Position numbers and translations under genes: made by a program
Source: Salinibacter sp. 10B
Lineage (GTDB): Bacteria > Bacteroidota > Rhodothermia > Rhodothermales > Salinibacteraceae
Assembly: GCF_002954405.1 (NCBI RefSeq)
Contig: NZ_MQWC01000004.1
Span: forward strand, 1,725,909 to 1,789,908
Direction: 5' to 3'
DNA length: 64,000 bases
Shown: one piece after another, positions 47,823-52,309 of the stretch
How positions within the stretch are numbered: the first letter of the stretch is position 1
Layout: every line of letters begins with the position of its first letter
Notes under the pieces: generated by a model
Database searches by the model: none
What the model was told of the DNA's origin: nothing
What the model saw: the letters and a program-made list of their open reading frames with translations, nothing else

Positions 47823-49454
47823 CTACGGCCGATACGTAATCCCAAGCTGAAACTGGCTTCGGGCAATGCGTTCTCGTACAAACGGGGGACCATCGGCGTA
47901 TGAAACAAACTCGTCGTCGAAGCGCTCCTGGAGCCAATTGACGTGAAGAGCCAACTGATCGTCGGGCGTGTAGCTAAGCCCCGCCGACAGGAAGAGTCGA
48001 TCTCCATTCGTCGTCTGCCCATCGATATCCTGAAAGTCCAGGGTTCGGGGATCGGGCCGATACGCCACCCCGGCGCGAAGGACCGCCTGACTAAGGGAAT
48101 ACGCCGCTCCAATCCGGGAATTGAAGGTCGCCTCCAGATCCTCAATCTGACGGTTGAGGGCCGTGAAACTAGCGTCGTCGGCACGCACTCGCGCCTGCGT
48201 CCAGTCTATCATCTCCACATCCCCTGCCACCGTGAGGTCAGCGAGACGGTACTGCAAGCCCACCCCAAGCCGCCAGGGCGTGCGAATCCGGTATTCCCGA
48301 TCGGCCCCGGTGAGATCTCCACTTTCCAGTCCCTCGATGCCCCCTTGCGGGCAGGCAGCCCCGGAAAGCGAAAAGTCGCAGTCAAAGTCCGTCTGAATGA
48401 GCGTGCCGTATGTTCTCGTCAAACTGAACCAGGTCGGCGACTCGATCCGGAGCCCTCCACGGAGCGCGGAGGTCATTTGTGCCGAAAGCCCGAACCGCAG
48501 GTTGACCCCATTGATTTCGGTGTCGATGCGCTCTTCCAGCCGAACCGTGCGGAATCCTTCGAGGGTCGTCCCCTCCAAGAAGTAGGGATCGTAGGGCGTC
48601 TGCGGATTGTTGGGATCTTCGGGCGGCAGGAGATCACTTGCGTCGGACTCCTGGTAAAAGCGCTCGAAGGTGTACGTGCCAAACTGGATATTGACGCCCC
48701 CTCCCAGCATAATGCCCGAAGCGACCTCCACCGCACCTCCGGTCGCCAGTTCGTTCACCTGTCCCGATCGACGAATATTTTCCTGCTGACGAAGCTCCAT
48801 TTGGCTGCTTACGGCCGGGGAGCGAGGGTTGGCCGCCGCAAAGAACGGATACTCCTCATTCTCAAAGACCGCCTGTGAGAAGTCGATGGCCCCGGCCTCG
48901 TAGGCAATGCGAGAACGCACGTCGTCAAAAACGATCTCGTTTCCATCCACCTCAAAACTGGTCGGCAGAAACGTGCCGGTAATGGAGGTAGACCGGTTGC
49001 TTCCGGATACGTCGCTGCCCCGTTCGAATGTGGTGATGGGATGGAGCGAAAGGCCCAGCACCAGGGATCCCCGCTCGGTAGGAAAGGAGTAGGCCCCGGC
49101 GAGCGATCCAAGCTGGTAGTCGCTCACGGTCCGCTCTGCCGATGTGCTGACACTAGGGGTGACGAACTCCGCGTTTGATCGTGCCCGCTGCACGGCAAAG
49201 TCGACCCCAAGCGCAGAACCCGACAGCCATCCAAGCCCGGCGGGATTGCCAAACAGAGCGCCCAGTTCCCCAACGCCTGCGAGAAGTCCCGCTCCCGCCA
49301 TGCCGGCCCGTTCGCCCCCAGCCGCAGGAAGCCGCTCCGAGTAACGGGTCACGTCGGTGAGCGTCACGTCTCCGGGGGTCTGTCCTGCGGCCGCTCCGGC
49401 CAAGAAGACTCCCAGAAGGAGAAGCAGCGAGCATCGGCAGAATCGGAGACACAT
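47823..49454 (-). CDS. FadL/OMPP1/TodX-type outer membrane transport protein
   Basis: The 543-residue protein has a signal peptide ending AAAG before QTP and the FadL-type N-terminal feature ERAGMAGAGLLAGVGELGALFGNPAGL (GNPAG motif) found in OMPP1/TodX family proteins. The remainder consists of repeated beta strands. FadL-type channels let hydrophobic compounds cross the outer membrane. Of the barrel genes in the window this is the best assigned. Confidence 0.82.
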   Translation of the reverse strand: MCLRFCRCSLLLLLGVFLAGAAAGQTPGDVTLTDVTRYSERLPAAGGERAGMAGAGLLAGVGELGALFGNPAGLGWLSGSALGVDFAVQRARSNAEFVTPSVSTSAERTVSDYQLGSLAGAYSFPTERGSLVLGLSLHPITTFERGSDVSGSNRSTSITGTFLPTSFEVDGNEIVFDDVRSRIAYEAGAIDFSQAVFENEEYPFFAAANPRSPAVSSQMELRQQENIRRSGQVNELATGGAVEVASGIMLGGGVNIQFGTYTFERFYQESDASDLLPPEDPNNPQTPYDPYFLEGTTLEGFRTVRLEERIDTEINGVNLRFGLSAQMTSALRGGLRIESPTWFSLTRTYGTLIQTDFDCDFSLSGAACPQGGIEGLESGDLTGADREYRIRTPWRLGVGLQYRLADLTVAGDVEMIDWTQARVRADDASFTALNRQIEDLEATFNSRIGAAYSLSQAVLRAGVAYRPDPRTLDFQDIDGQTTNGDRLFLSAGLSYTPDDQLALHVNWLQERFDDEFVSYADGPPFVRERIARSQFQLGITYRP

Positions 49455-49577
49455 GAATCGTTACGACGGAAAAATCAGGAGACAACGAACGACCCCGTAC
49501 CCGACAGACATACGACAGGTGTTGTTGTCGAGCCGGGATCGGAACGGAAGGAGAATGGAAGAGACGACGCGCAACGT

Positions 49578-50717
49578 CTACCGGGAGCCGTTGTCGTCGC
49601 TGTCCCCCCCTCGATCGCGAGAGCGGTCGGATGAGGACGAGCGCGAGCGGTCCCGAGAGGACGAGCGCGTCCGCGTCGTGGAGCGGTCCGATGACGATCG
49701 GACGCGTCGGGGAGATGTTGCGCGGGATCGATCATTCGACCGCCCCCGACCGACCGCCTGTCCCCTGTTCGAGGAGCGGGAGCGGTCGCGGATGCGTGAA
49801 TCGGAGCGGTTTGAGGGGAGCCGGTATCCCGAGCGACGGTCGTCATCAAAGGACCTCCGTACTCGGTCGTCCGAGCGCGTCCGGGATCGATCCATCGTTG
49901 CGCGACGGGAACGTCCAATACGCCCGTCCCCCATGCGCTCTAATCGATCAATCTCCCAGCTGCGAGCCGTGCGGTCTCCCACTCGCCCGCGCTGAGACAT
50001 AGACGCCTCCCGCGACCGGCCGATGCGCCCCCCAGAGGACGAAGAGTGACGCGCTCGCTCGACCGACGACGCCCTCGCAGTGGGACCCCGACTAGCGGAT
50101 TGGCCCGCATCCGTCGTGCCTCGAATCGTAGCCCGGCGCGAGAGGTAGTCTCGCTCGTCCTCCCGCCAATCCGCGTCGCCGTAGTAGTAATACTGGTTGC
50201 CGAAGTAGTAATTCGAGTACGGCCATCCCCCGTAGCGGTAGCCATACCACGAGGAGTAGTACCGCCGTCCCCATGGGCGGTGATGGTAGTACGGGGTCCC
50301 GAAATGAAACGAGAGAGAGAACCGGGAGCCGTAGGATGGCCCGCACTGAGAATAGTAGTACCACGGATCATGAAAAAAGGCATCGTCGCACCATCCGCCG
50401 TACAAAGAGCGGTATGGGGACAACGCTCCATACTTGTACTTGTATTGGTACTTGTACTCGTACAGGTCATTGTACCCCGCGTATCCGTAGTCGTCGGTCC
50501 CCTCCATTCGATACTCACGCCGGTACTCGTTGGCATACATCGGGGCCTCGGACGACCGCTGTGCTGCCTCCGCCTGGGAAGTCCGGGCCTCAGCCCCCGG
50601 GTCCGTCGTTTTGAGTTGCGTGTAACATCCCGTGAGCCCAATCCCTAGGAGACTTACCGCAAGAACAACAACCGCGTGAGGGACAGTGGATAATGCAGTG
50701 CGAGCTGAATCATTCAT
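49578..50717 (-). CDS. Lipoprotein with Tyr-rich domain and Arg/Ser-repeat tail
   Basis: The 379-residue protein has a lipoprotein signal (LTGC, Cys31). Residues about 60-190 are Tyr/Trp/Gly-rich with runs such as YEYKYQYKYKY, YYYSQ and YYYYGD. From about 190 to the end the sequence is dominated by Arg and Ser (SRSSNR, RDRSRSSSSDRSRDRGG), reminiscent of the RS domains of eukaryotic splicing factors by composition only. A strongly basic tail is unusual on a halophile's acidic surface. It may bind nucleic acid, polysaccharide or phosphate groups. Homology to splicing proteins is not implied. The opposite strand also has an open frame over the tail, which I take as a shadow. Confidence 0.7.
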   Translation of the reverse strand: MNDSARTALSTVPHAVVVLAVSLLGIGLTGCYTQLKTTDPGAEARTSQAEAAQRSSEAPMYANEYRREYRMEGTDDYGYAGYNDLYEYKYQYKYKYGALSPYRSLYGGWCDDAFFHDPWYYYSQCGPSYGSRFSLSFHFGTPYYHHRPWGRRYYSSWYGYRYGGWPYSNYYFGNQYYYYGDADWREDERDYLSRRATIRGTTDAGQSASRGPTARASSVERARHSSSSGGRIGRSREASMSQRGRVGDRTARSWEIDRLERMGDGRIGRSRRATMDRSRTRSDDRVRRSFDDDRRSGYRLPSNRSDSRIRDRSRSSNRGQAVGRGRSNDRSRATSPRRVRSSSDRSTTRTRSSSRDRSRSSSSDRSRDRGGDSDDNGSR

Positions 50718-51166: not shown

Positions 51167-51742
51167 ATGTCTTCTTCCCTCACCGACGACGTGCGCCAGT
51201 CTGCGCAGACGGCGTACGGAGGCGTGCCCAACTTTTTGGATGCCATGAACGCCCACACCGGCGTGCCGGGGGCCGTATACGTGGCGGCCGATGAGGCCCT
51301 CATGGACGGGCTCCTCTCCCCAGCCGAGCAACAGGCCGTTCTTCTGACCATCTCGGCCCACCACGATAGCCGGTACGACAGCGTGGCACACGCCCGCCTT
51401 GCGATGGATGCAGGCCTTTCTCCCACGGTCGTGAACCGGCTTCTCGCTGGCAAGTTGCCCGAAGACGAGCGACTGCGCGCACTCGTCGAGGCCACGCGCC
51501 AGACCTACGATGAGCGCGGCTGGCTCGACCCAGAGATCGTGCAGAACCTCGAGGACCGAGGGGTTGGTCGCGGCGAGCTGTACGAGATCTTTGCGCTCTA
51601 CGGCATGAAAACCTTCAGCAGCTTTGTGAATCATATTGCGGACCCGGAGATCGACCCGTCCCTCAAGTCGACCGAGGACGCGCTCGACAATGTGCCGGAG
51701 AAGCCCTCAACCCTGGAAATGAGGCGACTCGTGATTGGATGA
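51167..51742 (+). CDS. AhpD-like carboxymuconolactone-decarboxylase-family protein without the catalytic cysteines
   Basis: The 191-residue protein aligns along its length with the next gene (EQQAVLLTIS, LPEDERLRALVEATR, LYEIFALYGMKTFSSFVNHIAD). The two cysteines of the AhpD-type CxxC are replaced: the aligned segment reads HDSRYDSVAH, so Ser68 and Asp71 stand in place of Cys, while His75 is kept. It can therefore not act as a thiol peroxidase of the usual kind. It may be a regulatory or structural partner of the second copy, 45 bases downstream. Confidence 0.8.
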   Translation: MSSSLTDDVRQSAQTAYGGVPNFLDAMNAHTGVPGAVYVAADEALMDGLLSPAEQQAVLLTISAHHDSRYDSVAHARLAMDAGLSPTVVNRLLAGKLPEDERLRALVEATRQTYDERGWLDPEIVQNLEDRGVGRGELYEIFALYGMKTFSSFVNHIADPEIDPSLKSTEDALDNVPEKPSTLEMRRLVIG

Positions 51743-51787: not shown

Positions 51788-52309
51788 ATGGCCCGCGCTG
51801 CGTCTGCCTCCACCACACAAGAAGTCCAAAATTCGGCTCGTGAAGCCCTCGGGTTCTTACCCAACCTCATCAAAGAACTGAGTGAGCATAACCCTGCTGC
51901 TGCCAAGCTCTATCTCGCCACGACGAACCTTCTCGACGAGGGCGGCTCACTCACGACACCGGAGCAGGAGGTGGTGTTGCTCACCGTTTCCCGCTACAAT
52001 GATTGCCATTACTGCACCAGTGTACACGGCAAGATGGCCATGTCGGTGGGGCTCGACCGTGAAACCGTCGAGACCATCAACAGCGGCGGCCTTCCTTCCG
52101 ACGACCGGCTGCGGGTGCTCGTACAGGCCACGCGTCTAATGCTCGACAAGCGGGGGTGGCTCGACGACGAAGACCTCGATACCCTGAAGCAAAAAGGAGT
52201 CGACCGGGCTGAGCTCTACGAGATCAATGCCCTCATCGGCATCAAAACCTTTAGCAATTACGTCAATCACGTAGCTCAGACGGAAATCGACTCGCAGTTT
52301 GAATTTTAA
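51788..52309 (+). CDS. AhpD-like peroxidase-family protein (carboxymuconolactone decarboxylase fold)
   Basis: The 173-residue protein has the redox motif NDCHYCTSVH with Cys73 and Cys76 and His80, the hallmark of the AhpD-like alkylhydroperoxidase core. It probably reduces peroxides with a thiol reductant or acts in related redox chemistry. It is in tandem with a homologue that lost both cysteines and is probably co-transcribed with it. Confidence 0.85.
   Translation: MARAASASTTQEVQNSAREALGFLPNLIKELSEHNPAAAKLYLATTNLLDEGGSLTTPEQEVVLLTVSRYNDCHYCTSVHGKMAMSVGLDRETVETINSGGLPSDDRLRVLVQATRLMLDKRGWLDDEDLDTLKQKGVDRAELYEINALIGIKTFSNYVNHVAQTEIDSQFEF

Follow-up and report, generated by a model that had tools for sequence, protein, structure and literature searches.

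A predicted tyrosine-rich lipoprotein with an arginine/serine tail and a FadL-fold barrel as a conserved gene pair in Bacteroidota

Comparison of loci showed that a predicted lipoprotein of Salinibacter sp. 10B and the FadL-fold barrel encoded beside it form a conserved, putatively outer-membrane two-gene module, whose members occur together in many families with changing gene neighbourhoods. The key result lies beyond the coordinates of the lipoprotein gene: in all 18 homologous loci (18 of 18) the barrel gene comes next downstream, in the same orientation, and the two genes very probably act together. Because the pair is widespread in Bacteroidota, it appears to be a general envelope part rather than a Salinibacter oddity. 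The features concerned lie in the window, by which we mean the whole stretch of 64,000 nucleotides that was analysed:

49578-50717, minus strand: lipoprotein gene, 379 aa, with a Tyr-rich middle and an Arg/Ser tail (open reading frame and homologues)
50625-50717, minus strand: signal peptide and lipobox, residues 1-31, ending in LTGC and followed by YTQL (alignment)
50139-50537, minus strand: Tyr-rich middle, about residues 61-193, predicted to be disordered (sequence and model)
49581-50135, minus strand: Arg/Ser tail, residues 195-379, predicted to be disordered (composition and model)
49357-49995, plus strand: antisense open frame, 212 aa, not read as a gene (shadow of the Arg/Ser codons)
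47823-49454, minus strand: partner FadL-fold outer-membrane beta-barrel, 543 aa, 123 bases downstream of the lipoprotein gene

The upstream gene of the pair starts with ATG, and its product is predicted to be a lipoprotein with the lipobox sequence GIGLTGC followed by YTQL, in which Cys31 is the lipobox cysteine (called by eye and with a pattern; LTGC = residues 28-31). The mature head (164 aa) contains 34 Tyr, 6 Phe and 6 Trp, and the tail (residues 195-379, 185 aa) comprises 51 Arg, 41 Ser, 20 Asp, 18 Gly and 4 Glu with no Lys, giving a net charge of +27; the motif GRIGR appears in it at residues 230 and 265. The tail is therefore a polyampholyte with a positive surplus and not a pure polycation. 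A sequence-only reading of this DNA had described a stretch of about 190 residues in which Arg and Ser predominate, together with a Tyr-rich part, and both descriptions hold, the two parts being conserved together well beyond the window's relatives. As to its remark that such a protein is chemically odd for a halophile, 13% of the tail is acidic, so that it is not the simple opposite of a halophile's acidic proteins. No Pfam family exceeded its cut-off for the lipoprotein, NCBIfam gave no match up to E 1 and solved structures no relative up to E 0.1; five more distant homologues and one close homologue likewise had no Pfam match up to E 0.1. The AlphaFold2 model (23 sequences) was confident in the signal peptide region only, and because its mean pLDDT is 45, disorder is the simplest reading of the mature lipoprotein, although an inadequate alignment might produce the same low value. 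Eukaryotic SR proteins and FUS-type disordered proteins also have an RS-rich tail or a Tyr-rich segment. The likeness is one of composition only, since the window protein appears to be exported with a lipobox and has no Pfam domain, and we do not claim homology. Promoter and terminator scans gave results similar to those for shuffled sequence.

Using the lipoprotein alone as the query, we found matches in 18 of 59 other related genomes (19 of 60 including the window's own). All 19 aligned members, among them the window protein, share an unvarying GCYTQ and a tail rich in Arg and Ser; L28, G30, C31, Y32, T33 and Q34 do not vary in this alignment, and GCYT is also invariant in a wider alignment of 23 sequences. 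When the tail was compared with that of the closest relative over 166 codons, differences fell at 46 first, 39 second and 102 third positions, and the third position was likewise the most variable in six further pairs of relatives. Since variation is highest at the third position of the sense frame, an opposite-strand gene is unsupported and was rejected; long antisense frames such as 49357-49995 on the plus strand are taken to arise because Arg/Ser codons read antisense give few stops. Both doubts raised in the sequence-only reading, namely that the conserved frame might lie on the opposite strand and that homologues might lack a similar tail, are answered by these comparisons.

We further examined the surroundings of the pair. 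Of 13 other window genes searched, nine are present in the stretch from one genome (G008); the remaining 17 stretches, of 7-19 kb, contain none of the 13, and a local operon with other window genes is therefore unsupported. Of the 18 stretches, that from G008 alone has, next to the pair, the two tandem carboxymuconolactone-decarboxylase-family genes seen in the window (51167-51742 and 51788-52309, plus strand). When named genomes were searched with the barrel alignment, 61 loci emerged, including those of Salinivenus, Salinibacter altiplanensis, Roseithermus, Pedobacter, Mucilaginibacter, Algoriphagus, Spirosoma, Dyadobacter and Saprospiraceae. Among further genomes of the phylum, 210 of 296 had a barrel match at E 1e-10 or better, and 80 of the 210 were sampled, spread over families and mostly with the better-scoring matches. 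The resulting set comprised 160 barrel open reading frames in 159 loci (141 distinct after dereplication). Loci from the named genomes are labelled as Rhodothermales, Cytophagales, Chitinophagaceae, Saprospiraceae and the Pedobacter group. One barrel locus is labelled Alphaproteobacteria, which may be a binning error.

A filter for an upstream lipoprotein gene with at least 12% aromatic residues in the first half of its product was passed at 135 of the 160 barrel frames, and inspection of the 25 failures revealed the gene in 21, a short form in one and nothing in three. At the level of distinct loci, an upstream gene whose product is aromatic-rich and Arg/Ser/Gly-tailed is present in 137 of 141 (117 by the filter and 20 by a relaxed filter or by eye), and the remaining four consist of a short CYTQ lipoprotein (L160) and three loci without an upstream gene (L084, L162 and L173). 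In the named genomes, the upstream gene was found in 60 of 61 loci (for L078 its end only, at a contig end). As a control, a near-identical filter, tolerating a slightly wider end position, was applied at 20 BamG loci, where two genes passed, neither with an R/S-rich tail. The view that such a lipoprotein is rare in bacteria, also put forward from the sequence alone, thus fails within Bacteroidota, where this kind of gene is widespread. Literature searches, covering titles and the starts of abstracts, with subscription papers and preprints mostly outside their scope, gave no description of the lipoprotein or the pair among the matches listed. 'Vitellogenin II', which we take to be an old annotation of such proteins, led to nothing relevant in the literature.

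Several loci depart from the simple arrangement. One genome carries two lipoprotein-barrel pairs in tandem (L143; CYTQF and CVTQL), and the loci of Salinivenus lutea and iranica (L054 and L057) hold, about 2 kb upstream of the barrel, a second lipoprotein (CYTKLG, 460 aa) with an Arg/Ser-rich second half, apparently a tandem paralogue. A further small lipoprotein is encoded close upstream of the barrel at L153 (CMTYTVFSHPDV, 186 aa) and at L185 (CYTILVHPSI, 175 aa); the latter sits beside a CYTQI protein of the usual kind, and at L153 the filter may likewise have picked the smaller lipoprotein over the usual one. The upstream gene at L176 is split over two frames, one with the GCYTQF start and the other with the aromatic and Ser/Gly/Arg-rich part, suggesting a frameshift or a sequencing error, and that at L105 is partly masked. 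Beyond the pair, a gene that we take from its sequence to be proS was found in 101 of 159 loci (83 of 141 distinct), always upstream and in divergent orientation, and is the second gene upstream of the barrel in 48 of 51 loci of its main cluster. It was not found in the stretch examined from the closest relative or in a group of the same class (L128-L147) that we infer to be mostly Balneola-like.

To describe the tail across the family, we curated 135 distinct upstream proteins (window protein excluded; four Cys positions set by hand), in which an aromatic-rich first part and an Arg-over-Lys tail are kept together. Every one of the 135 tail halves carries a net positive charge (median +19, minimum +3), tail length is highly variable, and Lys is scarce (median 0.5%), with nine proteins above 5% and values of up to 19%. 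Over four classes of rising GC content, the median R/(R+K) was 0.89, 1.00, 0.97 and 1.00 in tails versus 0.50, 0.56, 0.82 and 0.94 in partner barrels, and the tail value lay above that of its own partner in 117 proteins, equalled it in four and fell below it in 14 (Wilcoxon, P = 3.6e-20; related sequences). Tails prefer Arg to Lys even in AT-rich genomes: below 50% GC, the preference exceeded that of the partner in 67 of 73 cases, and six go against it. Tail Arg nevertheless correlates positively with GC (Spearman 0.55), and the high Arg level in the window's own genome is therefore partly compositional; Ser and Gly are unrelated to GC. In an earlier, not curated, protein set, the window's genus and nearest genera (14 sequences) have 9-17% D/E in the tail half (median 13.6%, compared with 2.0% for other members of the order) and are also higher in Arg (28% vs 19%); net charge per residue did not differ (0.145 vs 0.179 in 31 sequences, P = 0.32). 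Two genomes from another genus of the same family (G024 and G026; L035 and L036), counted in the comparison group, have only 5% and 2% tail D/E, and salt adaptation is therefore only one possible reason for the acid-rich tail. Because all sequences share descent, these P values overstate independence.

The partner barrel, on which the sequence-only reading was silent, is assigned a FadL-type fold by its AlphaFold2 model (38 sequences, mean pLDDT 87), which aligns with E. coli FadL over 372 residues (VIA Z 34.3, rmsd 3.8) and has FadL, TodX and TbuX among the closest solved folds; Z scores were 30.8-31.8 against BamG chains and about 26 against a type IX translocon barrel chain. It carries NPAGLG at residues 70-75, of which NPAG is invariant across 19 aligned partner barrels, and matches PF03349 (FadL/Toluene_X) at 38.1 bits against a curated cut-off of 29.7; the same genome holds a separate and far better PF03349 match of 207 bits. 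With cleavage assumed at the conserved Gln, the position of NPA relative to that in E. coli FadL (N33, P34) would make the mature N-terminus longer than that of FadL by about 13 residues in the window barrel, 12 in the genome's own BamG and 7-9 in 30 of 37 measured relatives; for a BamG one would expect about 10-12. Fold, motif and PF03349 match are shared with the FadL/TodX/TbuX channels, from which the window barrel differs in this apparently longer N-terminus and in its fixed upstream partner gene.

We further compared the pair with known Bacteroidota systems. According to two papers, BamG-BamH joins a FadL-fold barrel and a lipoprotein in the BAM complex (PMC12611786, PMC12578637), and the N-terminal extension of BamG passes through its lateral opening (PMC12578637). 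The window pair resembles BamG-BamH in that its barrel has a FadL fold, an apparently extended mature N-terminus and a lipoprotein with which it would work. Identity of the partner with BamG was rejected, since it scores 24.2 bits with NF053685 against a cut-off of 250 and the genome has its own BamG candidate elsewhere (C4:3437574), at 228.5 bits just below that cut-off. BamH, as a folded carbohydrate-binding-like domain with a surface export signal, would differ from the window lipoprotein, which is predicted to be disordered, lacks that signal and has no NCBIfam match. Directly upstream of BamG, seven of the 20 loci encode a lipoprotein with a mature length of about 370-425 residues (L038 2-1348, G000 C4 near 3437574; L202, L203, L206, L208, L211, L212, L213), with at least one acid in the six residues after Cys (CSDLTG, CDSPGD, CSEDPT and similar). 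It could be a BAM lipoprotein subunit; for the one in the window's own genome, NCBIfam gave no match. PorV is reported to be a FadL homologue that binds substrates and shuttles them (PMC12578637). The window barrel is akin to PorV/PorQ of the type IX secretion system as a Bacteroidota FadL homologue and in its match to the translocon barrel chain, but we rejected it as a member because it is absent from the seven NF033709 matches of its own genome (E up to 10; cut-off 90 bits). Five of these exceed the cut-off (C4 3821703, 1613100, 2100043, 4198837 and 4085678), and three other partner barrels matched NF033709 below it.

The side of the membrane on which the lipoprotein lies bears on any function. 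Bacteroidota surface lipoproteins carry an export signal of at least two acidic residues among the six after Cys (PMC12578637); the rule comes from Bacteroidota such as Bacteroides and may not hold in Salinibacter. The window protein, with YTQLKT after Cys, has no acidic residue there; the number is zero in 116 of 127 distinct lipidated members, one in the other 11 and two in no member, compared with at least two in four of five readable SusD-like lipoproteins of the same genome (a sixth was unreadable), all five of which have Asp directly after Cys. Moreover, seven loci (L087, L095, L167, L168, L171, L179 and L183), and probably also the partly masked L105, encode a plain signal peptide with no lipobox, and these proteins keep the aromatic part, the Arg/Ser tail and the position beside the barrel. 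The lipoprotein would on balance face the periplasm, a placement we hold with some confidence because the export signal is absent and plain-signal-peptide members exist; both point that way and neither proves it. Surface display, which the matrix and glycan-binding ideas of the sequence-only reading had assumed, finds no support in the export-signal rule.

Our overall reading, which we put forward tentatively, is that the lipoprotein is a barrel-docked, periplasm-facing disordered tether, whose target may not be exactly as guessed. It would be attached to the outer membrane's inner leaflet and face the periplasm, with its anchor-proximal and Tyr-rich part docked on the periplasmic side of the barrel, a contact of which adjacency alone is no proof. 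The barrel would act, like BamG, as a scaffold and not as a channel for fatty acids, and the long disordered Arg/Ser tail would extend and hold an anionic envelope polymer by Arg contacts, making the pair a flexible tether of the outer membrane. Judging from charge and place, peptidoglycan would be the most likely target; that the tail binds peptidoglycan or another periplasmic polyanion is possible but doubtful. Against this reading, the lipid anchor is not universal, three of 141 barrel loci have no upstream gene, most barrel relatives show the shorter N-terminal extension of 7-9 residues and part of the Arg richness is compositional.

Other readings account for some of the same evidence. 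The lipoprotein may instead lie outside, bound to the barrel's extracellular loops much as BamG holds BamH, with its tail binding lipid A, acidic exopolysaccharide, DNA or other external anions. In its favour, the two BAM papers describe FadL-fold BamG as holding the surface lipoprotein BamH through extracellular parts (PMC12611786, PMC12578637) and FadL-like and BamH-like proteins with consecutive locus tags, Bt1785 and Bt1786 (PMC12578637). The consistently positive tail would suit this placement as well; however, the lack of the two-acid signal in every lipidated member, set against the SusD-like proteins, and the seven loci that lost the lipobox yet kept the pair make it unlikely. A channel for hydrophobic molecules, with the lipoprotein as periplasmic acceptor or gate, is suggested by the above-cut-off PF03349 match, the FadL, TodX and TbuX folds and the invariant NPAG. 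We nevertheless consider such an uptake system very unlikely, because a disordered low-complexity protein would be an improbable ligand carrier, the extended mature N-terminus resembles BamG (though it is shorter in most relatives) and the genome has its separate 207-bit PF03349 match.

The composition of the tail also admits two further explanations. Sticker-spacer models call for Arg over Lys together with Tyr. On this basis, Tyr and Arg could act as stickers and Ser and Gly as spacers, and self-association of the protein would then surround the barrel with a condensate or layer tethered to the membrane, as the co-conservation of the aromatic first part and the Arg-not-Lys tail in 135 members and the predicted disorder of the window protein might suggest. 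Composition alone is weak evidence for this, and polyanion binding accounts for the charge equally well, which leaves the idea quite unlikely. Its fullest form appears improbable: a phylum-wide membrane-tethered Tyr/Arg sticker lipoprotein with FUS-type logic, giving a condensed or gel-like outer-membrane layer nucleated by a dedicated FadL-fold barrel, in which the Salinibacter group has raised acids and Arg together at constant net charge. Finally, the tail could be unselected, functionless low-complexity drift in a GC-rich genome, given how much its length varies and how its Arg content tracks GC. Net positivity throughout the curated set, the Arg preference over the partner below 50% GC, the independence of Ser and Gly from GC and the equal charge per residue between groups that differ in D/E and Arg all argue against drift, which we hold to be highly improbable.

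Taken together, these findings suggest that the tether reading, if correct, would fit a wider pattern: Bacteroidota have rebuilt outer-membrane machinery around FadL-fold scaffolds and lipoproteins, as in BamG-BamH. The pair described here would add another module, one whose upstream protein is probably disordered and matched no Pfam or NCBIfam model where these were tried. An odd-looking protein of a halophile thereby leads to a general question, namely what role an Arg-based, positive and disordered tail may have at the Bacteroidota outer membrane.
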